This document shows, piece after piece, positions 263-11,738 of a stretch of 30,808 nucleotides of DNA. How positions within the stretch are numbered: the stretch's first letter is position 1; every line of letters begins with the position of its first letter. The DNA lies in IMG/VR virus record IMGVR_UViG_3300027974_000106, positions 1 to 30,808 of that record, one strand, 5' to 3'. The notes under the pieces are model-generated. The model saw only the letters and a list, made by a program, of their open reading frames with translations. It was not told the DNA's origin and did not search any database. A program made the position numbers and the translations under genes. This DNA comes from a virus.

Positions 263-291
263 ATTTTAGCACGCGCGCGGGGGGCTGTCAA
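263..291 (-). promoter_or_regulatory. leftward sigma70-like promoter, TTGACA-17-TAAAAT
   Basis: On the minus strand a consensus -35 (286-291) and a TAAAAT -10 (263-268) are 17 bp apart. It shares TTGACAGCCCCC with the rightward promoter E1. The two copies form a 15-bp perfect inverted repeat (280-294 and 333-347) and diverge from each other. It would serve genes left of the window. Confidence 0.65.
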
Positions 292-335: not shown

Positions 336-374
336 TTGACAGCCCCCAAAATTATGTGATATAATTTTGGCGCC
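336..374 (+). promoter_or_regulatory. E1: rightward palindromic promoter element
   Basis: TTGACA (336-341), an 18-bp spacer and TATAAT (360-365) are followed by GGCGCC (369-374). A dyad CCAAAATTAT (346-355) / ATAATTTTGG (361-370) covers the spacer and -10. It points right, into terminators and the 3' end of a leftward gene. It is one of seven related elements. Confidence 0.75.
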
Positions 375-412
375 AATAACCCCACAACCTGGTCGGCTAT
401 AGGGTTATTGGC
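372..412. repeat. stem-loop following E1
   Basis: GCCAATAACCC (372-382) pairs perfectly with GGGTTATTGGC (402-412) across a 19-nt loop. It lies at the expected 5' end of an E1 transcript and has no U-run on either side. Confidence 0.7.
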
Positions 413-418
413 ACAAAT

Positions 419-449
419 AAAAAAGCCCCGAGTATGTTATACTCGGGGC
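419..449 (-). terminator. intrinsic terminator of the leftward transcript
   Basis: GCCCCGAGTAT (425-435) and ATACTCGGGGC (439-449) form an 11-bp stem with a 3-nt loop. Read leftward it is followed by six T (424-419). It is the second of two terminators behind the 503-712 gene. Confidence 0.9.
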
Positions 450-477
450 CAGCCAGACCCACCATAGGTAGGCAGGT

Positions 478-501
478 AAAAAGGGCAATATGCCCCTTTT
501 T
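478..501 (-). terminator. intrinsic terminator, possibly bidirectional
   Basis: A GGGC/GCCC-type stem around a short ATA-rich loop is flanked by A5 on one side and T5 on the other, so it can work in both directions. It lies directly behind the stop codon of the 503-712 gene. Confidence 0.8.
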
Positions 502-502
502 A

Positions 503-712
503 TTATTCGTCGTCAGTATCTGATACTGGGGACCAAGATACTTTAGTTTCCCTGAAAACCTCAGTTTCCACAAAGAATTTCACAGTATCCACGGCAATAT
601 CTTCTTCTTCGATTGCAAAATCGGTCAACATATTCTCCCACGCCATTTGTGGAGACAAACCCTGAGAGAAAAACTCAGAACCCGAAAAATCCTCAGCAAT
701 AACTGCAAACAT
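503..712 (-). CDS. small acidic hypothetical protein, 69 aa
   Basis: I do not recognise this protein. It is acidic, with an EEEDIAVDTVKFF stretch in the middle and a DTDDE tail, and has no predicted membrane segment. The ATG start at 712 is supported by AAGGGA eight bases upstream on the coding strand. It is the last gene before two intrinsic terminators and has its own candidate promoter region around 834-862. Its C-terminal SPVSDTDDE resembles the SPVTDTD end of the SprT-like protein encoded at 1758-2141, which may be coincidence or a recombination junction. Its job cannot be inferred. The rightward promoter E1 would produce RNA antisense to it if it reads through the terminators. Confidence 0.75.
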   Translation of the reverse strand: MFAVIAEDFSGSEFFSQGLSPQMAWENMLTDFAIEEEDIAVDTVKFFVETEVFRETKVSWSPVSDTDDE

Positions 713-833
713 GGTATTTCCCTTGAAATGAAAAACAAAAATGGGGGTGGATTATCGGAGATTACGTTTCCGGCCGGATTCGTCGAAACTACTGTTGGCC
801 TACAGTTCAACAATCCCCGATAATCCAGATTTC

Positions 834-878
834 ATTATAAGGGGCTTGTTTCTAGACTTAGGCCTGATCCAGGATCAG
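834..878 (-). promoter_or_regulatory. candidate leftward promoter with adjacent palindrome
   Basis: A minus-strand TATAAT (834-839) has only a poor -35 (CCTAAG, 857-862). Just upstream lies the perfect dyad CTGATCC-A-GGATCAG (864-878), which would suit an activator or repressor. The leader also holds a 10-bp inverted repeat (749-758 with 817-826). It would serve the 503-712 gene. Confidence 0.4.
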
Positions 879-900
879 AGCGTGCCAAAACTTTATTTAA

Positions 901-917
901 TGGGGCTGTTAACCCCA
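901..917 (-). terminator. weak terminator-like hairpin behind the HTH gene
   Basis: TGGGG (901-905) pairs with CCCCA (913-917). Read leftward it is followed by TTAAATAAAG. The stem is short and the U-run poor, so partial termination at best. Confidence 0.3.
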
Positions 918-927
918 ACCCACTAAC

Positions 928-1254
928 TCAAACCGGCCGGCTATTCGCCAGTGCCTCGAAAATAGTCTTCAGGGCCGACTTGTTGGCCTTGGTCAGACTA
1001 TCAATCTCACCCTCGCTCAGTTTCAGAATTGCGCCGATTGCATCAGCGTGAGCATCTTTCTTCACCGGCTTTTCGCCAGTTTTGCTCACATATTCCTTCT
1101 TACGGTAAACACCCTCGCGGCTCAGTTTTGCAACCACAGAACGGACAGTTTTGCCCAAGGATTCTGCGATACTCTCGACAGTAACCCCGGCGGAATAATC
1201 CACCAGCATCTGAGTAGTTTGCTCAGGTGTATAGTTCACAATCTTTTCAGCCAT
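928..1254 (-). CDS. HTH-like DNA-binding phage protein, 108 aa
   Basis: The start is the ATG at 1254, giving MAEKIVNYTPEQ; a longer reading from a TTG lacks a good ribosome site. Residues about 9-50 (TPEQTTQMLVDYSAGVTVESIAESLGKTVRSVVAKLSREGVY) look like a helix-turn-helix of the kind found in many phage early proteins, where SVRSVVAKLSREG is a familiar signature. A charged linker follows, then a C-terminal helical segment with LSEGEIDSLTKANKSAL. That last segment recurs in the 48-aa protein at 4990-5136. It is probably a DNA-binding regulator or accessory protein. It is transcribed leftward from the strong promoter at 1416-1445, behind a 26-codon leader ORF. Confidence 0.8.
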   Translation of the reverse strand: MAEKIVNYTPEQTTQMLVDYSAGVTVESIAESLGKTVRSVVAKLSREGVYRKKEYVSKTGEKPVKKDAHADAIGAILKLSEGEIDSLTKANKSALKTIFEALANSRPV

Positions 1255-1265
1255 TTTCAAACCCC

Positions 1266-1346
1266 TCAAAAGTTAAGAAAGAACACATTGACAAAACGCA
1301 CCCGTTGACGATGACGACGGGACAAACGAAAATTCTTTTCAGCCAT
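1266..1346 (-). CDS. 26-aa basic leader peptide
   Basis: ATG at 1346 is preceded by CGGAG at good spacing. The product begins MAEKN and is rich in arginine (FRLSRRHRQRVRF), ending NVFFLNF. The start region (TTGAAATGGCTGAAAAGA) nearly duplicates the start of the next gene (TTGAAAATGGCTGAAAAGA), and the stop lies 11 bases before that gene's ATG. This suggests either a partial duplication or a leader peptide that couples translation. Its small size keeps the call tentative. Confidence 0.45.
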   Translation of the reverse strand: MAEKNFRLSRRHRQRVRFVNVFFLNF

Positions 1347-1415
1347 TTCAATTCTCCGATAATTAAAGCATGGGGAAACTTTGGTCTAGCCCGGCAATCC
1401 CCGATCCGTTCCACT

Positions 1416-1445
1416 ATTATAGGGCAAGTGGAAAAGCCTAGTCAA
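1416..1445 (-). promoter_or_regulatory. leftward promoter, TTGACT-18-TATAAT
   Basis: On the minus strand TTGACT (1440-1445) and TATAAT (1416-1421) are separated by 18 bp. It reads into the leader ORF and the HTH-like gene and is one of the best leftward promoters here. Confidence 0.8.
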
Positions 1446-1553
1446 GTGTAGGGTTTTCTTCCTTTCTGTTTCGCGCTGATCTCTGATCCAATGAATGTAT
1501 TATGGGGCAGACCGACCGGGCCGTCAACACCCACCAGGAAAGACCCTGAGCCC

Positions 1554-1617
1554 AGGTCGGATATTTTGCAGGCCACTTGACAGCCCCCAAAATTTTATGA
1601 TAAAATTTTGGCGCACC
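1554..1617 (+). promoter_or_regulatory. E2: rightward palindromic promoter element
   Basis: TTGACA (1577-1582), an 18-bp spacer and TAAAAT (1601-1606). The dyad is the longest of the family: CCAAAATTTTAT-G-ATAAAATTTTGG, 12-bp arms. Upstream is the shared box AGGTCGGATATT (1554-1565). Nothing on the + strand after it looks like a gene. Confidence 0.75.
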
Positions 1618-1648
1618 AAAGCCCCTACAAATTGTAGGGGCTTTGGTG
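1614..1648. repeat. 17-bp perfect stem-loop behind E2
   Basis: Arms 1614-1630 and 1632-1648 (core CCAAAGCCCCTACA) are perfectly complementary around one base. It separates E2 from E3. There is no U-run on either side, so it may protect RNA ends or form a cruciform rather than act as a simple terminator. Confidence 0.7.
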
Positions 1649-1656
1649 GCCGTGGG

Positions 1657-1686
1657 TTGACACCCCCCAAAATTTCATGGTAAAAT
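1657..1686 (+). promoter_or_regulatory. E3: rightward promoter element, dyad degraded
   Basis: TTGACA (1657-1662), CCCCCCAAAATTT at the start of an 18-bp spacer, and TAAAAT (1681-1686). The right arm of the dyad is lost (TAAAATCGG), so this copy is a diverged or separately controlled member. It points at the 3' end of the SprT-like gene. Confidence 0.65.
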
Positions 1687-1702
1687 CGGCACCCCTTTGG
1701 TA

Positions 1703-1716
1703 AGTGAGTGCTCACT
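1703..1716. promoter_or_regulatory. AGTGAG-TG-CTCACT dyad downstream of E3
   Basis: This 6-bp-arm dyad begins 16 bp after the E3 -10 and matches the core of the 20-bp palindrome at 142-161. A shared operator is plausible; it would sit over the start of an E3 transcript. Confidence 0.5.
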
Positions 1717-1730
1717 AACAACCTGGCCAA

Positions 1731-1759
1731 AATATATGGGGCATATTGCCCCATATATT
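1731..1759 (-). terminator. terminator-like hairpin overlapping the SprT-like stop codon
   Basis: AATATATGGGGCA (1731-1743) pairs with TGCCCCATATATT (1747-1759). Read leftward the stem runs into TTTTGG. The U-run is short, so efficiency is uncertain. Confidence 0.55.
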
Positions 1760-2141
1760 AATCGGTATCAGTTACTGGACTATATAAACAGGTTATTTCA
1801 AAACCTATATTGTTGAGATAGTGGGTTAAGTGGGTTGCCAATTCTTGAAAAGTAGTATCATGGTGGTGGGTGGGATCAAATAGATTCTTTTCCAGCATAC
1901 ACGCATGGATCAATTCGTGGGCAATAGTATCGTAAATACTATATTCTGATTCAAAAAGGGTATCCAGATTTATTACCACCTTATGACCCACAATACGATC
2001 TTTTCGAAAATAACTGTCACAATATCCAGCCAATCCCCGAGTATCTTTTTTGGCCTTAGTCCGGATTTTAATGGTAATTGGTTTTTGAATATCGAGGGAT
2101 TCTTGACAGGCTTTAATCAATAGCAGCAAATCGGGTTTCAT
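1758..2141 (-). CDS. SprT-like zinc metallopeptidase, 127 aa
   Basis: The zinc-binding signature HELIHA places catalytic H75, E76 and H79, with a third ligand candidate in the HHH run at 92-94, as in the SprT-like family. Family members include Spartan-type proteases that cut DNA-protein crosslinks, though the role of phage members is not established. The ATG at 2141 has AAAGGA upstream, which favours it over the longer reading. The gene follows the DnaQ-type exonuclease in one leftward operon, with a 12-bp hairpin between them. A second, divergent SprT-like gene lies at 4235-4612. The protein is short compared with cellular SprT and lacks an obvious zinc-finger tail. Confidence 0.8.
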   Translation of the reverse strand: MKPDLLLLIKACQESLDIQKPITIKIRTKAKKDTRGLAGYCDSYFRKDRIVGHKVVINLDTLFESEYSIYDTIAHELIHACMLEKNLFDPTHHHDTTFQELATHLTHYLNNIGFEITCLYSPVTDTD

Positions 2142-2158
2142 TTGATATTCCTTTGAGT

Positions 2159-2185
2159 TACCCGGCCACAATATGTGGCCGGGTA
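2159..2185. repeat. intergenic stem-loop between exonuclease and SprT-like genes
   Basis: TACCCGGCCACA (2159-2170) and TGTGGCCGGGTA (2174-2185) form a perfect 12-bp stem with a 3-nt loop. There is no U-run leftward, so mRNA processing or stability is likelier than termination. Confidence 0.65.
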
Positions 2186-2195
2186 TACTTACATA

Positions 2196-2891
2196 TTAGA
2201 CCTTGAAATGGTCACGAACCTGAAATCCATTCCACGCATACGGGGTGATTTTGTTTTGCCAATTGCGTTTTTTGAGTATGTGTGTCAAAATAGGCAATTC
2301 AAAATTGATGGCATCTTCAATAGCAGTATGTGGTTCGTCAATAAGAGTACCAGTAACAAACCCACATACTACTTCTGCATTGGTTTTGAATGTCATATTA
2401 CCCTTGGGAGTCGGATTGTTGAAAAGGTGATTATCCAAAACAAAACGCTTAAATGCCACAGTATTGCAGATATTACCAGCAGCAGCGTGCCACAAACAAA
2501 ATCGAGAATTAAACCCATTCAAATCAATACCAGTATTGAGGCACTTACTCACATCGAATGCAAGATTATACGCAGTCAGGGTGGGACTATAAACTGCAAT
2601 TGCTTTCTTAATCCAGTTATTAATTGCAGATACCCCTGCAACCATACGAGTACCGGATTCTAGCATGGCATTATATGAGGCCTTGCGACGATTAAGACCC
2701 TCATAACCCCAGATATCGTTTTTCTTAGGATCATGGAACAATTCATGCGTACCATAATGGCCGGCCACCAGAACAGCCATTTGATTATGTATATTACCCT
2801 TGCGATCTACAATTACAATACCAATATCAGCCACAGTATCTGCAACTGTGGTTTCAGTATCAAGAATTGCAAAGTATTGTTTGCTTGCCAT
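2196..2891 (-). CDS. DnaQ/DEDD-family 3'-5' exonuclease, 231 aa
   Basis: Exo I motif DTET gives D11 and E13; an Exo II-like LAFD gives D113; an Exo III-like HTAIEDA gives H188 and D193. These fit a DEDDh 3'-5' exonuclease of the RNase T/DnaQ superfamily, acting on DNA or RNA ends with two metal ions. The ATG at 2891 has GGAG seven bases upstream, so the N-terminal extension of the longer open frame is not used. The promoter at 2950-2978 drives it leftward, together with the SprT-like gene. Likely roles are host DNA or RNA turnover or proofreading; no polymerase gene is visible in the window to decide. Confidence 0.85.
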   Translation of the reverse strand: MASKQYFAILDTETTVADTVADIGIVIVDRKGNIHNQMAVLVAGHYGTHELFHDPKKNDIWGYEGLNRRKASYNAMLESGTRMVAGVSAINNWIKKAIAVYSPTLTAYNLAFDVSKCLNTGIDLNGFNSRFCLWHAAAGNICNTVAFKRFVLDNHLFNNPTPKGNMTFKTNAEVVCGFVTGTLIDEPHTAIEDAINFELPILTHILKKRNWQNKITPYAWNGFQVRDHFKV

Positions 2892-2949
2892 ATTATCTCC
2901 AGTGATAACCGATTGAGGGAATGTGCGTCGGAATCTCGCGCACCCGTGG

Positions 2950-2978
2950 ATTCTAGTCGATGTTGCCCAGGTTTGCAA
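2950..2978 (-). promoter_or_regulatory. leftward promoter, TTGCAA-17-TAGAAT
   Basis: On the minus strand TTGCAA (2973-2978) and TAGAAT (2950-2955) are 17 bp apart, about 60 bp before the exonuclease start codon. Confidence 0.55.
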
Positions 2979-3041
2979 GTCCCTACACACAGTGGGGTCA
3001 TTATTTTTCTGTGGTGTTTTTGTGACAAAGACCCCAGGCCC

Positions 3042-3094
3042 AGGTCGGGTATTATTTGACAGCCCCCAAAATTATAGAGTATAATTTTGGCGCC
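3042..3094 (+). promoter_or_regulatory. E4: rightward palindromic promoter element
   Basis: TTGACA (3056-3061), 18 bp, TATAAT (3080-3085), then GGCGCC (3089-3094). The dyad is CCAAAATTAT/ATAATTTTGG. The AGGTCGGGTATT box (3042-3053) ends 2 bp before the -35. It faces the 3' end of the PQ-loop gene. Confidence 0.75.
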
Positions 3095-3121
3095 ATATTA
3101 TCCCCATTATGGGGATAATAT
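3095..3121. repeat. stem-loop behind E4
   Basis: ATATTATCCCCA (3095-3106) pairs with TGGGGATAATAT (3110-3121), 12 bp, directly at the end of the PQ-loop gene. It may end the leftward transcript and would be the 5' hairpin of an E4 transcript. Confidence 0.7.
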
Positions 3122-3122
3122 A

Positions 3123-3371
3123 CTATTGTCTTTCCCAAATCTTATATCGGATCATAACCCCCAAGAATACCAGATTTAATAGGTAATTGAATAACAGGGG
3201 ATAATCCTGTTTAGGCCAGATATAGATTATTGTCAGTATCTCACCGCCTAACCATGCGGCCAAGAAAAACCAGTTTAATCCACGGGAATGTCCATACTTT
3301 GCACATTGAATTGCCTGGGGCAATCCACATATTGCAAATAGGATCGCACCAATCCATCCTATAGTTTCCAT
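3123..3371 (-). CDS. PQ-loop / SemiSWEET-like membrane protein, 82 aa
   Basis: Three hydrophobic segments fill almost the whole protein: about residues 3-22, 33-50 and 58-75. The first contains the PQ motif (CGLPQAIQ, P18-Q19), followed by a short basic loop (KYGHSRGLNW). This matches a single PQ-loop unit of the SemiSWEET type, three helices in roughly 85-95 aa, which dimerise to move small sugars or related solutes across the inner membrane. Translation is coupled to the HAD gene: its stop lies three bases before this ATG, and the AAGG ribosome site lies inside that gene. The substrate cannot be told from sequence. A phage-encoded copy is unusual. Confidence 0.7.
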   Translation of the reverse strand: METIGWIGAILFAICGLPQAIQCAKYGHSRGLNWFFLAAWLGGEILTIIYIWPKQDYPLLFNYLLNLVFLGVMIRYKIWERQ

Positions 3372-3374
3372 TTA

Positions 3375-3851
3375 TTAATGACCTTGTTTTGATGGAACAT
3401 ATACCCCACGGATATTAAAACGGTCACAAACCGCTTTCAGATACTCGATATTGTCTTCATAGAATGTGAATTCAGCATCACGGAAATTGACCAGATTAAA
3501 AAACTTGGCCAAACCACTTATTTTGAGGGTTTTGCCAGATACTGAACTACCCTCGGGGCGGGAAATAAGATAATCGGGTTCGCCGAGAATATCACGGACA
3601 AATTGATAATCGGGTTCGTGCATTACACGGGCAGTAGCGATAATGACAAAAGTGTTTTCGTCGGTCAAATCAGCCTTATATTGTTCAGCCAATGGCAGGA
3701 GAGTATCTTCACCAGCACGATACTCATTTTCTCTCCAGTATTGCAGGTCAATACGTTCCCCATTATCGTCCAAAATAGTACGATACCGATGCAGAGAGTT
3801 AACAATGGTACCGTCCATATCGTAGATACTAACCTTTTTGATCTTTGCCAT
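3375..3851 (-). CDS. HAD-superfamily phosphatase, 158 aa
   Basis: Motif I is DMDGT (nucleophile D11, acid/base D13), motif II is in ATAR (T73), a lysine for motif III lies at K108 or K110, and motif IV is YEDN (132-134). This is a complete small HAD hydrolase, like phage enzymes annotated as nucleotide or polynucleotide phosphatases. It would remove phosphate from a nucleotide or a DNA/RNA 3' end in the cytoplasm. The ATG at 3851 has AGGTG upstream; a GTG three codons earlier is less likely. It is first in an operon with the PQ-loop gene, behind the promoter at 3888-3917. Confidence 0.75.
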   Translation of the reverse strand: MAKIKKVSIYDMDGTIVNSLHRYRTILDDNGERIDLQYWRENEYRAGEDTLLPLAEQYKADLTDENTFVIIATARVMHEPDYQFVRDILGEPDYLISRPEGSSVSGKTLKISGLAKFFNLVNFRDAEFTFYEDNIEYLKAVCDRFNIRGVYVPSKQGH

Positions 3852-3887
3852 TTTGAACACCTAGTGGTTGTCTTTTGCGATGGAGTG

Positions 3888-3917
3888 ATTATGCTTCAGA
3901 AGTCAAACCCATGTCCA
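3888..3917 (-). promoter_or_regulatory. leftward promoter, TGGACA-18-CATAAT
   Basis: On the minus strand TGGACA (3912-3917) and CATAAT (3888-3893) are 18 bp apart, upstream of the HAD gene. The segment after the -10 (AATCACTCCATCGCAA) recurs with one change upstream of the 5138-5266 gene, suggesting a shared start region. Confidence 0.55.
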
Positions 3918-3966
3918 GCGAGGGGTCTTTTGTCCCTACAACCTGTAGGGGCTTTGAGCCAGGCCC

Positions 3967-4005
3967 TTGACCAGGCCCAAAATTATGTGTTATAATTTTG
4001 GCGCC
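3967..4005 (+). promoter_or_regulatory. E5: rightward palindromic promoter element
   Basis: TTGACC (3967-3972), 18 bp, TATAAT (3991-3996), GGCGCC (4000-4005). The dyad CCAAAATTAT-GTGTT-ATAATTTTGG is intact although the -35 and the start of the spacer differ (AGGCCC). Confidence 0.7.
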
Positions 4006-4008
4006 TAT

Positions 4009-4026
4009 ATAGGGGTAAACCCCTAT
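4009..4026. repeat. stem-loop behind E5
   Basis: ATAGGGGT (4009-4016) pairs with ACCCCTAT (4019-4026), just past the stop codon of the small membrane protein gene. Confidence 0.6.
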
Positions 4027-4029
4027 TGA

Positions 4030-4233
4030 CTACCATGCTTTCCACAATCCAATGATGTTAGCCATCATGAAAAACCCATTCAAAACCCCTAAACTAACAT
4101 TCCGGGTCTTGACAGCCACCCAAAGCCAGCACACGCAGCCCACCAAAAACAGAATGTAGCCCATTACCAACACCTGGAATGCCACGACAAAACTGCCGAT
4201 CACGCTTGCCACAGTACCAATCCATCCGATCAT
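4030..4233 (-). CDS. small membrane protein, 67 aa
   Basis: Nearly all hydrophobic, with three likely short membrane segments (residues about 4-22, 24-40 and 48-64) broken by KTRN. The end, NVSLGVLNGFFMMANIIGLWKAW, resembles the final helix of PnuC- or PQ-loop-like small transporters, but the match is too short for a firm family call. Its start codon at 4233 overlaps the stop region of the SprT-like gene (TGACATG), so the two are translationally coupled. It lies last in a three-gene operon, ahead of E5. It could be a transporter subunit, an exclusion protein or a holin-like factor. Confidence 0.7.
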   Translation of the reverse strand: MIGWIGTVASVIGSFVVAFQVLVMGYILFLVGCVCWLWVAVKTRNVSLGVLNGFFMMANIIGLWKAW

Positions 4234-4234
4234 G

Positions 4235-4612
4235 TCAACCCTTGTATTTAGCTTGACGATAGTTTACCATGTTGTGAAGCCGGGTTGTCACAATACCCAT
4301 ACGCTCCAGTACACTATACCAACCCTTGCCATGTCCCGGATCACCGTATATGGTATAAGCCACAAGATGCGCCAATTCGTGGGGGATTGTGTCCACAATC
4401 ATATGGTCAGTGTATTGACAAAACAGGTCCGTGGATAGGTCGATCTTTTGAGGGTTCTCCTCAATGAAGGCCCGGCCGGCCGTGGTCTTCAATCTGTTGT
4501 TCAGGGTCACCACCGGAGTAGCCCTCTGAATTGTAGGGTATTGAGCCCTGAACTTGACCCACCATGAACGCACGTGGTATTGGGCCAGGTCTTGAAGTGT
4601 TTGTTTGTCCAT
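4235..4612 (-). CDS. SprT-like zinc metallopeptidase, 125 aa
   Basis: PHELAHLVAY supplies H78, E79 and H82, and GDPGHGKGW supplies a third ligand at H94. HExxH followed by H-G-x-x-W is the normal SprT-family pattern (SprT itself and phage relatives). The likely role is proteolysis of DNA-bound or misfolded proteins in the cytoplasm, inferred from the family. The ATG at 4612 has GGAG very close (two bases), and a longer reading from TTG cannot be excluded. It is downstream of a 43-aa membrane protein gene and coupled to another. It is clearly divergent from the SprT-like protein at 1758-2141, so the two are not a recent duplication. Confidence 0.8.
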   Translation of the reverse strand: MDKQTLQDLAQYHVRSWWVKFRAQYPTIQRATPVVTLNNRLKTTAGRAFIEENPQKIDLSTDLFCQYTDHMIVDTIPHELAHLVAYTIYGDPGHGKGWYSVLERMGIVTTRLHNMVNYRQAKYKG

Positions 4613-4675
4613 GACTCCATTCTCGCCAGGATGCCTTACAGTTCCCTTACAACCCCTCAATCAGTCAGGATTTTC

Positions 4676-4807
4676 CTAAAGCCCCACGATTTCTGTGGTG
4701 TATTCAACCAACTTGCAAATCATGCCAACCCACAAGGGCAACCCAAAGAAAAACAGGCCGGCCAAAACCTCAACGAACCCGAGATACATATAGTTCCAAA
4801 CAAACAT
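4676..4807 (-). CDS. 43-aa single-pass membrane protein
   Basis: ATG at 4807 follows an excellent ribosome site (AAGGAG, eight bases). The product has one long hydrophobic helix (YLGFVEVLAGLFFFGLPLWVGMI) and a short polar tail (CKLVEYTTEIVGL). A membrane micropeptide of this kind could act in superinfection exclusion or lysis timing, but nothing in the sequence decides. It is the first gene of the operon with the SprT-like protease; a CATAAT -10 with a poor -35 lies just upstream. Confidence 0.7.
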   Translation of the reverse strand: MFVWNYMYLGFVEVLAGLFFFGLPLWVGMICKLVEYTTEIVGL

Positions 4808-4876
4808 TTTTTCTCCTTGATTCAATGGTTTTATTATGAGCCCCCAACCTTACGCCAACCTTACAACCCTGAGCCC

Positions 4877-4937
4877 AGGTCGGGTATTAACGTGGGGCTT
4901 GACACCCCCCAAAATTATATGATATAATTTTGGCGCC
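4877..4937 (+). promoter_or_regulatory. E6: rightward palindromic promoter element
   Basis: TTGACA (4899-4904), 18 bp, TATAAT (4923-4928), GGCGCC (4932-4937), with an intact dyad. The AGGTCGGGTATT box (4877-4888) ends 10 bp before the -35, about one helical turn. Confidence 0.75.
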
Positions 4938-4964
4938 AACCCCTTGCCAAAACGGCAAGGGGTT
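4938..4964. repeat. stem-loop behind E6
   Basis: AACCCCTTGCC (4938-4948) pairs with GGCAAGGGGTT (4954-4964) across a 5-nt loop, immediately after GGCGCC and close to the end of the 4990-5136 gene. Confidence 0.7.
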
Positions 4965-4989
4965 GCAATAGGGGTTTCCCTCTATTGAC

Positions 4990-5136
4990 TCAAGCCAGCT
5001 TGGCAAGAATCTTCATCAAGGCAGTCTTGTTGGCCTTGGTGAGCGAGTCGATCTCACCCTCGCTCAGGCCCACCAAAGCCCCGACCTGGTCGGCCATCGT
5101 TTCCGATATCTCTCCTAGCTTGGTCTTCATGTCCAT
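4990..5136 (-). CDS. 48-aa protein sharing a C-terminal domain with the HTH-like protein
   Basis: Starts MDMKTKLGEISETMADQ at 5136, with AAGGGG upstream inside the previous gene; ATG at 5130 is an alternative. Its C-terminal half (LSEGEIDSLTKANKTALMKIL) nearly repeats the end of the protein at 928-1254 (LSEGEIDSLTKANKSALKTIF). So this is a stand-alone copy of that helical segment without the DNA-binding half. It could hetero-dimerise with the larger protein and modulate it. Its start overlaps the stop region of the 42-aa gene (TGACATG), so the two are coupled. Confidence 0.75.
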   Translation of the reverse strand: MDMKTKLGEISETMADQVGALVGLSEGEIDSLTKANKTALMKILAKLA

Positions 5137-5137
5137 G

Positions 5138-5266
5138 TCAAACCCCTTGTGCCAATTCTTGCAGTTCCCAGTTGATGGGGTCTTCATTCCAGATCAGTTC
5201 AGCGGCAACCATGTCCAGCTCAAAAGCCTGGATATCTTCAACAGTCATGTCTTGTGGATAGTACAT
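5138..5266 (-). CDS. 42-aa acidic hypothetical protein
   Basis: ATG at 5266 has AGGAG seven bases upstream. The product (MYYPQDMTVEDIQAFELDM... ending LQELAQGV) is acidic and helical in character, without membrane segments. I recognise no family. It precedes and overlaps the 48-aa gene. Its upstream region repeats the AATCAC-x-CATCGCAA motif seen before the HAD gene, with a weak TTGCTG-18-TAAAAT promoter possibility. Confidence 0.65.
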   Translation of the reverse strand: MYYPQDMTVEDIQAFELDMVAAELIWNEDPINWELQELAQGV

Positions 5267-5351
5267 CTTGATCTCCTGTTTGCCTTGCGATGTAGTGATT
5301 TTAAGCCAAAACACCAAGCAACAGCAACAACAAAATAATGTCCCTCTAACC

Positions 5352-5408
5352 AGGTCGGGTATCAGCAGGCCGTTTGACCCGGCCCGATTATGCGTTGTAT
5401 AATCGGCG
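5352..5408 (+). promoter_or_regulatory. E7: rightward palindromic promoter element with compensatory changes
   Basis: TTGACC (5374-5379), 18 bp, TATAAT (5398-5403). The arms are CCGATTAT (5384-5391) and ATAATCGG (5399-5406): both differ from the other copies yet remain complementary. The AGGTCGGGTAT box (5352-5362) ends 11 bp before the -35. Confidence 0.7.
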
Positions 5409-5431
5409 CACCTAGGGGTTTACCCTAGGTG
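5409..5431. repeat. stem-loop behind E7
   Basis: CACCTAGGG (5409-5417) pairs with CCCTAGGTG (5423-5431), directly beyond the stop of the 51-aa gene. Confidence 0.65.
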
Positions 5432-5437
5432 TTCTCC

Positions 5438-5593
5438 TCAGTCCGTCATTATCCGGTAGAGTTGCACAGTGTCCACGTCATGCTCACTCCCCGCGATTCG
5501 GCACGCATCGTGCAATGCCATACCACAGGTTTTCCTCAGGTAGGTCACCATGGCGATGGCATCCCACAGGTTTACAATTGCTTGGCTAGTCAT
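5438..5593 (-). CDS. 51-aa hypothetical protein
   Basis: ATG at 5593 has GGAGG at ideal spacing inside the preceding gene, and its start overlaps that gene's stop (ATGA). The product (MTSQAIVNLWDAIAMVTYLRKTCGMALHDACRIAG...) is soluble and probably helical, and I know no family for it. It is the last gene of the first leftward operon, ahead of E7, which would transcribe it in antisense. Confidence 0.7.
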   Translation of the reverse strand: MTSQAIVNLWDAIAMVTYLRKTCGMALHDACRIAGSEHDVDTVQLYRIMTD

Positions 5594-5757
5594 GCTTCCT
5601 CCAAAATTTCCTGAGCAACCTCAACACAAACCGAGTTCAACATGTCGTGAAGGTCAACCATGATATTGTAGTTGTCACGGCTACGATCCAGCTGATAGTG
5701 TACCAGTGCGTTAGCGTAACGCTGGGCCAGGTTTTCCATATGTTCGCGTGTTGTCAT
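5590..5757 (-). CDS. 55-aa hypothetical protein
   Basis: ATG at 5757 follows AGGGG 6-7 bases upstream. The protein (MTTREHMENLAQRYANALVHYQLDR... ending CVEVAQEILEEA) looks fully alpha-helical and polar. No family is recognised. It overlaps the next gene by four bases and follows the 54-aa gene by 11 bases, so the three form one operon from the promoter at 5957-5985. Confidence 0.7.
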   Translation of the reverse strand: MTTREHMENLAQRYANALVHYQLDRSRDNYNIMVDLHDMLNSVCVEVAQEILEEA

Positions 5758-5768
5758 CTTGATCCCCT

Positions 5769-5933
5769 TCAGTCTACTTGAACGTCAACGATTGTATCGC
5801 CATTGAAGATGAAATACAAGCAGGTTCTGCCGTATGTCACCATGATGCAACCGTTAGCAGGTTGCATAACAAAATGGGTCACGCCACTTTGTGCCATGTT
5901 CGTCTTGATTGCTTCGATCTGGTTGTTTGTCAT
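5769..5933 (-). CDS. 54-aa hypothetical protein, first leftward gene
   Basis: ATG at 5933 has GAGAG upstream, a modest ribosome site. The sequence alternates polar and hydrophobic residues in its second half (FVMQPANGCIMVTYGRTCLYFIFNGDTIVDVQVD), suggesting a small beta-sheet fold. No family is recognised. As the first gene behind the strong promoter at 5957-5985 it is likely made very early. Confidence 0.7.
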   Translation of the reverse strand: MTNNQIEAIKTNMAQSGVTHFVMQPANGCIMVTYGRTCLYFIFNGDTIVDVQVD

Positions 5934-5956
5934 GTCGTTCTCTCTACAGTGAACAC

Positions 5957-5985
5957 AGTATAGTCCAGGTCTAGAATTTTGTCAT
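5957..5985 (-). promoter_or_regulatory. leftward promoter, ATGACA-17-TATACT
   Basis: On the minus strand ATGACA (5980-5985) and TATACT (5957-5962) are 17 bp apart, some 25 bp before the first leftward start codon. It is back-to-back with the late promoter at 6151-6179. The rest of 5986-6138 holds no credible gene. Confidence 0.75.
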
Positions 5986-6138
5986 TCAAAGTTTTTGTAG
6001 GGTAGATACAAAGAATTTGAATCGCTTACGTGATACAATAGACCAGGGGCGGTTACGAGACCTGTTATTTTCCACACCCGCTGCGCCCACCCAGACGCGG
6101 CCTATTTGGGAAAATTTAGCCAAACCTTTGTACGCAGA

Positions 6139-6866: not shown

Positions 6867-7340
6867 ATGCTACCAGCCACCCACCCAGCCGAAACACTCC
6901 AGATAGACCCTGAGGGGTTAGAGATTGCCAACTGCTACCTGCAAACTCAGAGCCTGACCAAGGTTGCTGAAGAACTAGGCATCTCCACCGAGCTGGTAGC
7001 CTCTCAACTCAACCGCCGCGAGGTAAAGAGCTATATTGATCAGGTCTTCAAGGACGTAGGATTTAACAACCGCTTCAAAATGCGTAAAGCAATGGATATG
7101 CTTATTAGTAAGAAGTTCCAGGAATTAGACGAGGCGGGAGTGGGGTCATCGAAGGATATCGCAGATCTTTTAGCGTTGAGCCACAAAATGACCATGGAAC
7201 AGTTGGACCGAGAAATTCAGTTAGAGAAAGTGCGTGCGTCCAACATTAAGTCACAGGTAAACGTGCAGATCAATGATGGTGGTTCATCTGGCTCAAATTA
7301 TGGCTCCCTACTAGAGAAACTATTGAAGTCCAATGCTTAA
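6867..7340 (+). CDS. terS: terminase small subunit, 157 aa
   Basis: An N-terminal helix-turn-helix (about residues 28-50, SLTKVAEELGISTELVASQL) recognises the packaging site in this family. A helical oligomerisation core (about 60-125) and a flexible glycine/serine-rich linker follow, with a C-terminal LLEKLLKS helix that probably binds TerL. The ribosome site AAGGAG lies six bases before the ATG. The stop overlaps the terL start by eight bases. The function call leans on position and fold pattern more than on residue identity. Confidence 0.8.
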   Translation: MLPATHPAETLQIDPEGLEIANCYLQTQSLTKVAEELGISTELVASQLNRREVKSYIDQVFKDVGFNNRFKMRKAMDMLISKKFQELDEAGVGSSKDIADLLALSHKMTMEQLDREIQLEKVRASNIKSQVNVQINDGGSSGSNYGSLLEKLLKSNA

Positions 7341-8637
7341 AATATCCAGAAGCGACATTGACCAGTTCAATATTACAGACTACTCAAGCGATGTTCGATT
7401 TATCAAACTGCCCATTGCTAACTACTTGAAGTTGGCCACTGTGGGTGGAGCCCCTATCTACGACAGTTTAAACTGTCCACAAATTGCCCTAATCAATGCG
7501 GTCAACTCACCCAGCTACCGGTTCATCTGTGCTGCACTGAGTCGCCGACTGGGCAAGACCTTTATTGCCAACGTGATTGGACAACTGGTGGTATTAATCC
7601 CAGGTTGTAATGTACTCATCATGAGTCCCAACTACAACCTGTCGACCATTAGTTTTGACCTACAGCGTGGGTTCATCAAGCAGTTTGATTTAGAGGTTAC
7701 AAAAGACAATGTAAAAGACAAGGTCATCGAGCTTTCGAACGGCAGTACTATCCGTATGGGTAGCATTACAACTGTTGACAGTTCAGTTGGTAGGTCTTAC
7801 AACTTGATCATCTTTGACGAAGCTGCACTGGGAGATGGTGGTGAAGAGGCCTTTAATGTGTCATTGCGACCTACTCTAGACCGTCCTGGGTCAAAGGCCA
7901 TCTTTATCTCAACCCCTCGCGGCAAACACAACTGGTTCTCTAAGTTTTGGGAGCGTGGCTGGAGTGACCAATACCCACAGTGGATCTCATTGCAAGCCGA
8001 CTACACTGAAAATGTTCGAATGTTGGAGAGTGACGTAGAAGAAGCTCGCCGAAGTATGTCGAAGGCTGAGTTTGAGCAGGAGTACATGGCATCATTCAAT
8101 GTGTTTGAAGGCCAGATCTATTCACTGTCAGAGTCACTCATTGTAGAGTTTGAACATAGTGACGGTGTGGAGTACCTAGCCGGAATTGACCCCGGCTATC
8201 GCGACCCCACAGCCATGGTGGTATTGGCCTACGACCCCAAAGTGGACACCTTTCATGTAATCGATGAGTATTTAGAGAGCGAAGCCACAACAGCCAAACA
8301 CGCAGAAGCCTTTAGTAAGTTGATTGACCGCTGGGGGTTAGACAGTGGTATCTTTATTGACTCAGCCGCAGCACAGTTTGCAGGTGACTTGGCTTACAGT
8401 TACGATATCTCAACCATCAAGGCCAAAAAGCAGGTCTTAGAAGGCATTGCTTACGTACAAACACTTGTAGAACAGGGTCGTATCAAGGTGGCCCCACACT
8501 GCCGTCACACGTTGGAAATGTTTGATCAGTACCAGTGGGACAACCGTGATACTTTGACCCGAGAAAAGCCTGTACACAGCAAGGTATCACACATAGCAGA
8601 TGCACTCCGCTATGCGGTTTATACCTATACCATTTAG
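7333..8637 (+). CDS. terL: terminase large subunit, 434 aa
   Basis: The ATPase half has a Walker A-like SRRLGKT (70-76), Walker B NLIIFDEA (157-164, D162-E163) and a coupling motif IFISTPRG (190-197). The RNase H-like nuclease half has D286 (GIDPGY), D343 (FIDSAAA) and D423 (HIADALRYA). All catalytic positions are present, so this is a complete packaging motor that pumps and cuts the concatemer. The start overlaps terS and no strong ribosome site is seen, implying coupled translation. Length is typical for this terminase group. Confidence 0.95.
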   Translation: MLKISRSDIDQFNITDYSSDVRFIKLPIANYLKLATVGGAPIYDSLNCPQIALINAVNSPSYRFICAALSRRLGKTFIANVIGQLVVLIPGCNVLIMSPNYNLSTISFDLQRGFIKQFDLEVTKDNVKDKVIELSNGSTIRMGSITTVDSSVGRSYNLIIFDEAALGDGGEEAFNVSLRPTLDRPGSKAIFISTPRGKHNWFSKFWERGWSDQYPQWISLQADYTENVRMLESDVEEARRSMSKAEFEQEYMASFNVFEGQIYSLSESLIVEFEHSDGVEYLAGIDPGYRDPTAMVVLAYDPKVDTFHVIDEYLESEATTAKHAEAFSKLIDRWGLDSGIFIDSAAAQFAGDLAYSYDISTIKAKKQVLEGIAYVQTLVEQGRIKVAPHCRHTLEMFDQYQWDNRDTLTREKPVHSKVSHIADALRYAVYTYTI

Positions 8638-8642
8638 TAGCT

Positions 8643-10463
8643 ATGAAAAAACTAATTCACAGAACCTATATCAACAGTGTAAGAACCAAACCAGGGCCAC
8701 TTGGAAAGCTGTTGGTAGACGGCGGAATACATTTGAGGTATCAACCCATCTGTAACATCTACGACAGTTCTGTGTTTGGCTATGAAGCACTATCCCGAGG
8801 GCCCGGAGGTCACACCCTGGAAAACCCACAAAACATGTTGTTGAGTGCTATCCGAGAGGGCTTGTTGTTAGAGTTTGAAATAGAAACCATACTGTTAGCC
8901 CTAGATTCATGGGATTACAGTGACAACAAGTTGTTGAGACTGTTTTTAAACATAAGCGCCAGTACTCTAGTAAAAATCTTTTTAACAGAGTACATGCCTC
9001 AAGCCAGAGAATTGATTTTTGCAGAGAAACAGAAATACAGCCACAACAGAACAATTGTATTTGAAATCACAGAACACGAAAAAATCACAGACATAGAAGA
9101 CCTGGTGTTGGTGTTGAATACGTTAACAAACATGGGCTTTGAGTTTGCCATGGATGATTTTGGAGAGGGTCACAGCAGTTTGAAACTGTGGTCACAAATA
9201 AAGCCACACTACGTAAAAATCGACAAGTACTTTACAAAAAACCTAGCAAACCATCCAGAGAATTTATTGACCATAAAAGCAATGGTTCAAATAGGTCAGG
9301 TATTTGACAGTAAACTGATAGCAGAAGGCATAGAAAACCAAGAAGACTTTAGAGTTATAAGAGACCTAGACATTCCCTATGGTCAGGGATTTTTAATAGG
9401 CCCTCCAGGAACCACACTGGAAGACACTCGTTCAATATCCAAAAAGATAGCTCAAGACGGCAGAATAAGTGTATTTCCAATGTTAAAAAAGAACAGGTTA
9501 AATTTTAATATCAGATCACTAGAGTATGAAGAAACCCCCTGCGCTACCAGAATGACCACATGCCTTGAAGTTTTTGAACTGTTTTCCAAAAACAAGCAAC
9601 TGTACTCTATAGCAGTGGTAGACGAACACAAAAAGCCGATTGGACTGATTGACAAGATTGCTGTAGCAGATAAATTTTCTGTGCCTTATTTTAAAGAAAT
9701 AAATGGTAAAAAGTCGTGTGTTGAATTAATGAACAGTTCAATAAAGGTCTTGGAAGCAGACAGCAATCTACAAGACTTGTTGGATGTTTTGAGTTCTGAA
9801 GACCAAAAGTATCTGTCTAGCGGCTTTGTAGTAGTGCGAAAAGGTCGATATGTGGGGTTGTGTTCTGCAGAACATGTTGTAAGAGTTATAACAGAATTGA
9901 GAATAGAGGCAGCACGTCATGAAAACCCACTAACATCTCTGCCAGGTAACTTGCCTATTACTCAACACATTGACAGACTCCTGGCAAGCAAAAATCCTTT
10001 TGTTGCTTGTTATGTAGACTTGAATAACTTCAAACAGTTTAACGATAAGTACGGCTATCAAAAAGGCGACATGTTGTTGCAACTATTGGCTGCAATTATT
10101 GTACAAAACTGTGATAATAAACTGGACTTTGTGGGGCATGTAGGCGGAGACGACTTTGTAATGTTAATGCAGAGTCAAACCTGGGAAAATCGCTGCATTG
10201 AAATTATAGAACAACTAAACAGAGATGCTGTAAAATTCTATACCAAACAAGACCAGGAAGAGGGCGGGATAACAGCAGAAGATCGGCATGGAGTAACACG
10301 TTTCTTTCCTTTTACCACCCTAGCAATTGGAGTGGTGTTAATAGACGGCTCTACCTCACACACAGGTGAAACTATCTCTGAACTAGCAGCAGTGGCAAAA
10401 AAGCATGCTAAATTAAACAACACAACAGGCATATACGTATTGAACTCTGTTAGTAATGGGTAA
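8643..10463 (+). CDS. EAL-CBS-GGDEF cyclic-di-GMP enzyme, 606 aa
   Basis: The EAL domain (about 25-265) has YEAL (E48), N103 (LNIS), E141 (EITE), DDFG (D171-D172), K192 (VKID), E228 (AEGIE) and Q248 (QGFLIG), the residues needed to hydrolyse cyclic-di-GMP. A CBS pair (about 300-415) follows, then a GGDEF domain (about 428-600) with YVDLNNFKQFND, QKGD and GGDDF at 501-505. The allosteric RxxD site is degenerate (N492 for R, D495 kept). Active phosphodiesterase is likely, and cyclase activity possible. Length and order match chromosomal EAL-CBS-GGDEF regulators. No ribosome site is seen; the ATG lies five bases after the terL stop. It looks richer in AT codons than terL, which suggests recent acquisition. 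Its place inside the packaging operon is very unusual. Confidence 0.93.
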   Translation: MKKLIHRTYINSVRTKPGPLGKLLVDGGIHLRYQPICNIYDSSVFGYEALSRGPGGHTLENPQNMLLSAIREGLLLEFEIETILLALDSWDYSDNKLLRLFLNISASTLVKIFLTEYMPQARELIFAEKQKYSHNRTIVFEITEHEKITDIEDLVLVLNTLTNMGFEFAMDDFGEGHSSLKLWSQIKPHYVKIDKYFTKNLANHPENLLTIKAMVQIGQVFDSKLIAEGIENQEDFRVIRDLDIPYGQGFLIGPPGTTLEDTRSISKKIAQDGRISVFPMLKKNRLNFNIRSLEYEETPCATRMTTCLEVFELFSKNKQLYSIAVVDEHKKPIGLIDKIAVADKFSVPYFKEINGKKSCVELMNSSIKVLEADSNLQDLLDVLSSEDQKYLSSGFVVVRKGRYVGLCSAEHVVRVITELRIEAARHENPLTSLPGNLPITQHIDRLLASKNPFVACYVDLNNFKQFNDKYGYQKGDMLLQLLAAIIVQNCDNKLDFVGHVGGDDFVMLMQSQTWENRCIEIIEQLNRDAVKFYTKQDQEEGGITAEDRHGVTRFFPFTTLAIGVVLIDGSTSHTGETISELAAVAKKHAKLNNTTGIYVLNSVSNG

Positions 10464-10621: not shown

Positions 10622-11317
10622 ATGACTATTGGAATTTATCGTCTGTGCTTTAGTGGCACAGACAGTTGTTATATTGGGCAGAGCATCAACATAGAGCAAA
10701 GATATAGAGAACATCTACGGAATTTTATAAATAAAAATCATTATCCAAAAATGATGGATGCATATCTCAAGTATGGTCAACCTGAATTAGATATATTATG
10801 TGAGTGTAACGTAGAAGACCTAAATGCTTTAGAGAATGAAGCAATTCAAATATTTGATAGCGTAAATAATGGATTTAATACAAATAGTAGGGCAGATCAG
10901 ATGCCTGTATTATATGGTGAATCTAATGGATACTCAAAGTATAGCAATAATCAAATAATACAGGTAGCAAAACTATTGACAGAAGTAGGTAAGACTCATT
11001 CCGATATTAGTAATCTTACTGGTGTAAGTATCAGTACTATAAGACATATTTCTTGCTTAGAAGGCCATAATTGGCTAGCCGAGATAGAACCAGAAATATA
11101 TAGTAAATTAATAAAATTAAAAGGTAGCAGAAAAACTGTTGCTAATAATACCTATAAATATCCAGATGTAATATCACCAGATGGGGTTGTTTATAGAGAT
11201 ATTCCAAATATATCTGCATTTTCAAAAGAGCATAGTTTAAATAATGGTAATTTTACTATGCTATTACAAGGTAAACGTAAGATACACAAAGGCTGGAGAC
11301 TGTGCACTAATGGCTAA
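10622..11317 (+). CDS. GIY-YIG homing-type endonuclease, 231 aa
   Basis: The N-terminal nuclease domain (about 1-90) shows GIY (4-6), CYIGQS for YIG, the catalytic arginine region (IEQRYREHL) and the metal-binding glutamate in ALENEAI. The middle has a DNA-binding HTH-like stretch (HSDISNLTGVSISTIRHISC), as in segmented homing endonucleases of the Seg/I-TevI type. The C-terminus (PDGVVYRDIPNISAFSKEHSLNNGNFTMLLQGKRKIHKGWRL) is a NUMOD-like DNA-contact repeat. GGAG lies six bases before the ATG. The gene is AT-rich and sits between packaging and portal genes, as expected of a selfish insertion. No intron is evident. Confidence 0.85.
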   Translation: MTIGIYRLCFSGTDSCYIGQSINIEQRYREHLRNFINKNHYPKMMDAYLKYGQPELDILCECNVEDLNALENEAIQIFDSVNNGFNTNSRADQMPVLYGESNGYSKYSNNQIIQVAKLLTEVGKTHSDISNLTGVSISTIRHISCLEGHNWLAEIEPEIYSKLIKLKGSRKTVANNTYKYPDVISPDGVVYRDIPNISAFSKEHSLNNGNFTMLLQGKRKIHKGWRLCTNG

Positions 11318-11738
11318 GAATACTAGGAACAGAATACCTGTCAAATGGATACGTGATAAAGCCAAGAGTGCGTACGAGAAAAAAGATCATTGTTATATCT
11401 GCGGAACCAATCAAGACTTAGAACTACACCACACCCATTCAGTTACTCTACTTTTAGAGCGTTGGATCGAAAAAACAGGTCGTGATTTTTCTTCTGATGA
11501 GGCAACCATAGCCAATAGAGAAGAATTTATTCAGCATCACCACAAAGAAATATATGATGATGTTTACACTCTTTGTGTAAATCATCATGTGGCTTTGCAC
11601 GGAGTGTATGGAAAAGCACCGCCTCTTTCTACTGCTCAAAAGCAAGGAGTCTGGATAGAAACTCAAAAGGCTAAAGTAACACTGAACCCCGGCGACAGAC
11701 CGAAAGTGGTCAGCGGAAGTTTTGGCGAATTTTATTGA
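11310..11738 (+). CDS. HNH endonuclease, 142 aa
   Basis: CYICG and LCVNHH give a CxxC...CxxH zinc pair that holds the fold, and LELHHTHSV plus the NHH carry the catalytic HNH histidines. Small HNH proteins beside terminase are established partners of DNA packaging in HK97-like phages (HK97 gp74), so a role in genome cutting during packaging is the best reading. The ATG overlaps the stop of the GIY-YIG gene by eight bases, so it could alternatively be a second mobile endonuclease. It precedes the portal gene by nine bases. Confidence 0.85.
   Translation: MAKNTRNRIPVKWIRDKAKSAYEKKDHCYICGTNQDLELHHTHSVTLLLERWIEKTGRDFSSDEATIANREEFIQHHHKEIYDDVYTLCVNHHVALHGVYGKAPPLSTAQKQGVWIETQKAKVTLNPGDRPKVVSGSFGEFY

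Follow-up and report, generated by a model that had tools for sequence, protein, structure and literature searches.

In phage T5, and also in tf and phiKMV-like phages, the DNA carries localized single-strand interruptions (nicks), and the T5 early promoters P-D/E20, P-H207 and P-N25 are strong promoters for the host RNA polymerase. The 3' ends of bacterial genes can carry convergent or antisense promoters and bidirectional terminators, which are usually scattered and weak. PeSL (promoter early stem-loop) cassettes were reportedly described by Arbiol et al. in 2010 and by Comeau et al. in 2014. In T4-type phages these cassettes combine a strong host-type promoter with a stem-loop and are found between accessory early genes (PMC4503421). 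As a case to compare with these systems, we consider the virus record IMGVR_UViG_3300027974_000106 (30,808 bp; the whole record, hereafter the window), a fragment of a T5-like phage, in which seven repeated promoter-like elements, E1 to E7, lie on the + strand of a block of leftward genes at its left end.

The elements resemble PeSL cassettes in that a host-type promoter is immediately followed by a stem-loop and that the unit is repeated in a variable early region; the comparison with PeSL made in a first-pass annotation of the window is therefore apt for the anatomy, but the orientation differs, as E fires against the flanking genes and occupies one strand only whereas the PeSL promoter drives the adjacent downstream gene. 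E also differs by a -10 box placed within a covarying palindrome, by an invariant GGCGC at the start and by its presence in a T5-like and not a T4-type phage, and because both the sense orientation and the host group fail to correspond we do not class it as PeSL. With the T5 nicks, E shares a Pu^GCGC core (Pu, purine) on the strand of the terminase large subunit gene (terL), the placement on one strand and the co-occurrence of a T5.153 homologue; unlike the nicks, the elements are intergenic, linked to a promoter, spaced at about one per kb and devoid of GTAA. They are strong host-type promoters in a T5-like phage, as are the T5 early promoters, but T5 itself contains no TTGAC..TAWAAT..GGCGC element. 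Antisense starts and hairpins shared by convergent units recall the antisense promoters of bacterial gene ends, from which E differs in being repeated with near-consensus boxes and held to a single genomic strand across a phage group.

Strand and placement in related phages

Tentatively, we take E for a boundary element, conserved in the early accessory block of a large group of uncultured T5-like phages, where it would supply local convergent promoters. What the comparison of sequences establishes is the promoter geometry, the antisense placement at gene ends, two hairpins selected for their structure, the invariant GGCGC, and the restriction to one strand and one block. Each element lies in the space that separates a leftward gene's stop codon from the promoter region of the following gene, its start region coincides with GGCGC and its palindrome spans the spacer and the -10 box. 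The common core can be written TTGAC(A/C)-18-TA(T/A)AAT-N0..4-GGCGC; the spacing of 18 bp, which the first-pass annotation had called invariant, is so in the window, but among relatives spacers of 17 bp sometimes occur beside the predominant 18.

Relatives were collected by a pattern search, giving 11 viral contig stretches with the same motif, and by a terminase search, giving 80 loci down to about 65% identity. The genes for the terminase small (6867-7340, +) and large (7333-8637, +) subunits served as the strand reference for the orientation test. Random orientation among relatives, named in the first-pass annotation as an observation that would refute its reading, was not seen: TTGAC..TAWAAT..GGCGC elements lie on the terL strand in 87 of 88 cases and in one block (15 records), the same pattern of one block and one strand was found again in 23 records, many of 90-104 kb, with a rare exception, and none of the 80 terminase-found loci has a palindromic promoter on the strand opposite terL. 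In the 90-100 kb records E is confined to a single block beside terL, and in the three records mapped in full the remaining leftward blocks are devoid of it. The few elements on the opposite strand include G006:34118 and one member of a pair in L366, where two sister-group E-type promoters (10704, +, and 10800, -) face each other across a stretch containing GGCGCC.

The elements had been described as pointing against the genes from the 3' end of each cassette, and this extends to the relatives: with a codon-trained gene caller, 375 of 378 palindromic E converge on the gene that follows, whose stop codon is a median 63 nt away, 362 of 378 are divergent from the previous gene and 6 lie inside a gene. 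A greedy caller of the longest open reading frames had given 14 'sense' cases, mostly call errors, against 3 of 378 for the trained caller. A hidden + strand gene driven by E was considered and rejected, given the convergent stop at that median distance and the absence of any such gene from the trained calls. The sister group (G017, G019, G021 and G025) has the promoter, GGCGC, the antisense placement and mostly the hairpin, and lacks the -10 palindrome. Outside these phages, one short blastn query joining five variants, which is not exhaustive, had zero matches in 50,697 cultured phage records; no exact match was found in one genome per bacterial or archaeal species, and no known RNA family matched above threshold.

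In the sources searched we found no description of arrays of near-perfect promoters locked against the genes, with covarying palindromes, that are conserved over a phage group of such deep divergence. Should E give rise to antisense RNA, convergent initiation would be the standard architecture of gene ends in these phages.

Promoter boxes, palindromes and hairpins

A promoter scan of the window gave 34 hits against 13.1 expected from shuffles, with E1-E7 as seven of the best nine, and TG precedes the -10 box in five of the seven. The boxes and their strand had been located correctly in the first-pass annotation; GGCGC behind the -10 box, the hairpin that follows it, the separate class of sense promoters in relatives and the T5-like nature of the phage had gone unnoticed there. 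E1 (336-373, +) reads TTGACA-18-TATAAT-TTT-GGCGC, with a 25-bp palindrome at 346-370 and then a hairpin at 371-413. E4 (3056-3093, +) and E6 (4899-4936, +) also read TTGACA-18-TATAAT-TTT-GGCGC, with palindromes at 3066-3090 and 4909-4933; the hairpin of E4 (3095-3121, 12-bp stem) stops just short of the minus-strand gene 3123-3371, at its 3' end, and E6 is followed by hairpins at 4937-4965 and about 4966-4987. E2 (1577-1614, +; TTGACA-18-TAAAAT-TTT-GGCGC) has its palindrome at 1587-1611 and a hairpin with a 15-bp stem at 1614-1648, E5 (3967-4004, +; TTGACC-18-TATAAT-TTT-GGCGC) has its palindrome at 3977-4001 and a hairpin at 4009-4026, and E7 (5374-5409, +; TTGACC-18-TATAAT-C-GGCGC) has other arms, CCGATTAT...ATAATCGG at 5384-5406, and a hairpin at 5409-5431. 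E3 (1657-1692, +) is a degenerate copy, TTGACA-18-TAAAAT-CGGCAC, with the terminal CGGCAC in place of GGCGC, and is followed by AGTGAGTGCTCACT at 1703-1716 and a hairpin at about 1731-1759. All seven had been called palindromic; this holds with the exception of E3, which keeps only 5 pairs. Allowing at most 3 mismatches, the palindrome CCAAAATTAT-N3-ATATAATTTTGGCGC occurs 9 times over the two strands together, against 0.00 expected. Most of the hairpins behind E in the window fold far better than shuffles (z down to -6.9), that of E5 being the weakest.

In the relatives the arms of the palindrome differ under a constant promoter geometry, and they covary, with 388 class matches out of 400 (shuffles: mean 127, maximum 153), and many arm classes coexist even within single genomes; it is therefore self-complementarity that is selected, and not one operator sequence. 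A single protein operator is unlikely for the same reason, and a promoter made bidirectional by the symmetry of the -10 box was rejected, as the other strand has no suitably spaced -35 box. N4-type hairpin promoters and Frpo-type single-strand promoters were also weighed, and no evidence for them was sought. As a separate observation, the perfect palindromes GTGAGCGCTCAC (146-161) and GTGAGTGCTCAC (1703-1716) are like a symmetric lac-type operator; the second lies directly behind E3 and recurs in the relatives L007, L012 and L014.

The association of the parts holds from whichever part the search is begun. Consensus promoters left of terL, with GGCGC not imposed, carry GGCGC in 146 of 154 cases on the terL strand against 1 of 44 on the other, and a search for hairpins with a GGCGC foot, in which promoter boxes were not required, returned 117, of which 109 include TAWAAT and 104 have a TTGAC close by. 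Behind the start region a second hairpin is present in 286 of 348 elements (82%; 1 of 348 when shuffled), mostly 0-4 nt past GGCGC. This hairpin can be a plain intrinsic terminator only in part, since at least 5 T among the 8 nucleotides directly behind it are present in just 46 of 286. Terminator-like sites within 120 nt are found in 50% of cases in the E direction and 34% in the sense direction (<1% shuffled), or in 58% and 39% with a looser test, against 12-15% at gene ends without E. Because of the start-proximal hairpins (82%) and the terminator-like sites (50%), many E transcripts may stop short of the gene body. In L039 (954-2700), the hairpins behind E carry a Fur-box-like AATGAGAATGATTCTCATT core in 2 of 3 elements and a variant in the third, and in other phages a AAACAAAAGTATT core is repeated; as the cores differ, each phage has its own hairpin family.

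Four good leftward promoters had also been proposed in the window. One of them, at 1445-1416 (-), scores 11/12 as AACCCTACACTTGACT-18-TATAAT and is a sense (S) promoter belonging to a class that is conserved in relatives, where the distinct sense-promoter class reads AACCCTACGCTTGACAGGGTT...TAAAAT; the other three reach 9-10/12, a level attainable by chance. A further leftward promoter, TTGACA-17-TAAAAT at 263-291 (-), stands back to back with E1 and is followed by several repeats of the TTATATT/TATAAGC type and no evident gene.

Strand avoidance of GGCGC and the possible function of the elements

With E masked and gene direction controlled, none of the other 1024 5-mers is as strongly avoided in the 11 palindromic-E genomes as GGCGC on the terL strand (effect -1.17 ln units, z -10.9; -0.46 for the runner-up in effect among strongly significant 5-mers). 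The direction is the same in 11 of 11 genomes, 10 of them at p<0.05, and the strand comparison pooled over the window clade is 29 versus 83. Because genes on both strands show the avoidance about equally, its cause is at the level of the DNA strand. It is gone for TGGCGCA and TGGCGCC, which are what most E contain, and amounts to 4-15 fold in most other contexts (G005-G032). Evasion of Type III restriction was rejected as a cause, since E itself puts GGCGC on the avoided strand.

The annotated major nicks of T5 have the form NPu^GCGCN and are all on the terL strand, with GTAA about 34-36 nt upstream of every annotated site; the published consensus is R/GCGCRGG (PMC3517423). E has the Pu^GCGC core on the terL strand, and in place of GTAA it has TTGAC 31-34 nt upstream. 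Among residual GGCGC sites of the palindromic-E genomes, GTAA stands at 33-36 nt in 19 of 184 on the terL strand against 12 of 526 on the other (p 2e-5, with orthologues not independent), and several residual terL-strand sites recur at orthologous places. One such recurring site, TTTTGGCGCAG, lies inside a short minus gene (G032:6092, G016:90202, G030:70077); in G032 and G016 it reads CACGTAATC, with GTAAT 34 nt before G^GCGC, which makes it a very T5-like candidate nick site. A homologue of T5.153 (39% identity), a putative nickase by annotation, is encoded in the window at 11244-11738 (+) and is found in 5 of 5 related genomes mapped; T5.153 is named a nicking (site-specific) endonuclease by the depositors of several T5-like phages. 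At the left end of the window, three 45-nt tandem repeats with GGTTTTCCACTGTGGCGC (7-141, +) are the counterpart of tandem repeats ending in TTTTGCACTGGCGCAG that mark the left border of the E block of relatives (G022:14653, G032:39089, G028:4528), and both resemble the nick site of the T5 injection-stop region, GGATTTGCACAAAA^GCGCAGG.

In the reading that we favour, E would be a near-consensus host sigma70 promoter at which the host RNA polymerase starts in the direction of the preceding gene's 3' end. Its antisense RNA would carry a hairpin at the 5' end and be short, or else stable or protected, and transcription from E would locally collide with, or occlude, polymerase reading out of the preceding gene, so that each small gene would be insulated from its neighbour. 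The strand lock may come from the antisense placement or from GGCGC as part of a strand-specific T5-type nicking system; the fixed orientation has this second candidate cause because GGCGC is strand-avoided genome-wide and matches the T5 nick core, and it is probable that GGCGC, kept off that strand elsewhere, also imposes the fixed strand. Several points weigh against this reading: the use of sigma70 is judged from the E. coli consensus; the palindrome cannot be essential to the role of E, because the sister group lacks it; insulation by itself leaves the self-complementarity of the arms unexplained; and within the window a terminator-like site in its own direction follows only 2 of 7 elements (E1 and E4), so that long antisense RNA may still be made there. 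Under a doubtful but serious alternative, E would primarily be a programmed single-strand interruption of the T5 type, the T5.153-like nickase cutting G^GCGC on the terL strand, with the promoter opening the non-template strand there or giving a recognition context, and the hairpins helping or protecting; the strand bias would then follow because only one strand is nicked. The T5 major nicks with their core and strand, the T5.153 homologue of the window and the five related genomes, the strand-specific avoidance of GGCGC outside E and the orthologous, GTAA-associated residual sites all argue for it, as does the location of GGCGC between -6 and +1, where an open complex is single-stranded. It has to contend with TTGAC standing where GTAA would be, with the unavoided contexts of most E, with a sister group and a T5 that show no GGCGC avoidance, and with a density of about one site per kb, far above that of the T5 major nicks; moreover the orthologous sites are not independent and the nicking activity of T5.153 is a depositor annotation. 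The promoter and nick-site readings are compatible, and a composite site, in which a consensus promoter against the preceding gene is fused at its start point to a strand-specific nick core, strikes us as rather doubtful; it would tie together the start of transcription, antisense RNA and programmed strand interruption at the boundary of every gene in the first-acting block of a T5-like genome. The role of the T5 nicks is still enigmatic after 50 years (PMC11780129), and if GGCGC is a nick core, E and the genome-wide strand avoidance would offer a way into what programmed nicks do in T5-like DNA.

The first-pass annotation had proposed the spread of a mobile cassette or a timed switch. The former is weakly indicated: homology breakpoints fall within 100 bp of E in 29.6% of cases against 20.8% expected, an enrichment that is weak and drawn from non-independent pairs, and E stands where the cassettes of a variable gene block meet. 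A recombination module like the T4-type PeSLs, by which accessory genes would be exchanged through homologous recombination, would account for the fixed orientation, since copies in opposite orientation would lead to inversion of the intervening segments, but it leaves the arm covariation, GGCGC and the choice of antisense over sense unexplained, and we consider it unlikely. A switch in which E fires later, when transcription moves on to the late genes, and uses long antisense RNA together with head-on collision to silence the leftward early genes appears still more improbable. The direction of E is that of the late operon in every genome and its boxes are strong and consensus-like, but no feature sets E apart as later in use than the sense promoters, and the two resemble host sigma70 promoters alike; most E are directly followed by hairpins or terminator-like sites, which leaves the timed shut-off unsupported, and the other leftward blocks of the same genomes do without E. 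Least probable is that the -10 palindrome is a supercoiling-dependent cruciform gating the promoter, or part of a hairpin in sense read-through RNA, with the promoter orientation secondary: compensatory arm changes of many types in single genomes fit a structure better than a protein operator, but the palindrome is dispensable in the sister group.

The leftward block and its phage

The first 8 kb of the window have zero match to cultured phages at the DNA level. Its terL is nearest to T5-like phages (47% to Vibrio Demerecviridae), as is its portal gene, and one early gene has a D5-like match. The related records of 90-100 kb keep the T5 late and replication genes in T5 relative order; the terS, terL, portal, capsid, tail and replication homologues so arranged place the group with the T5-like (Demerecviridae-related) phages. 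The leftward block at 500-6000 adjoins terS and terL, and in 5 of 5 related genomes mapped a homologue of dmp, in T5 the first pre-early gene of the terminal repeat, lies inside the E block, while tblastn found no match to the pre-early genes A1 and A2 in five related genomes. The E block is an early accessory block and probably pre-early; it may correspond to the pre-early, terminal-repeat region.

Fifteen genes had been counted here, all on the minus strand; the strand stands for all of them, and the trained caller finds 11 genes (503-5933, -), five of which are backed by Pfam or PHROG matches. They are located at 503-712, 928-1254 (D5-like), 1758-2141 (SprT-like), 2196-2891 (phrog_20187), 3123-3371, 3375-3851 (dmp/PNK-like), 4235-4612 (SprT-like), 4990-5136, 5138-5266, 5590-5757 and 5769-5933, all (-). 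A 74% DNA repeat (961-1037 / 5008-5084) ties the gene 4990-5136 to 928-1254, and the block repeatedly holds small D5-like DNA-binding proteins (928-1254 and 4990-5136; L007:6591-6905), often behind the conserved sense promoter; these proteins are candidate regulators of the E or S promoters. In the late operon, between terL and portal, the window encodes a 606-aa EAL-CBS-GGDEF protein (8643-10463), an architecture of cyclic-di-GMP enzymes, adjoined by a GIY-YIG homing-endonuclease-like gene (10622-11317).

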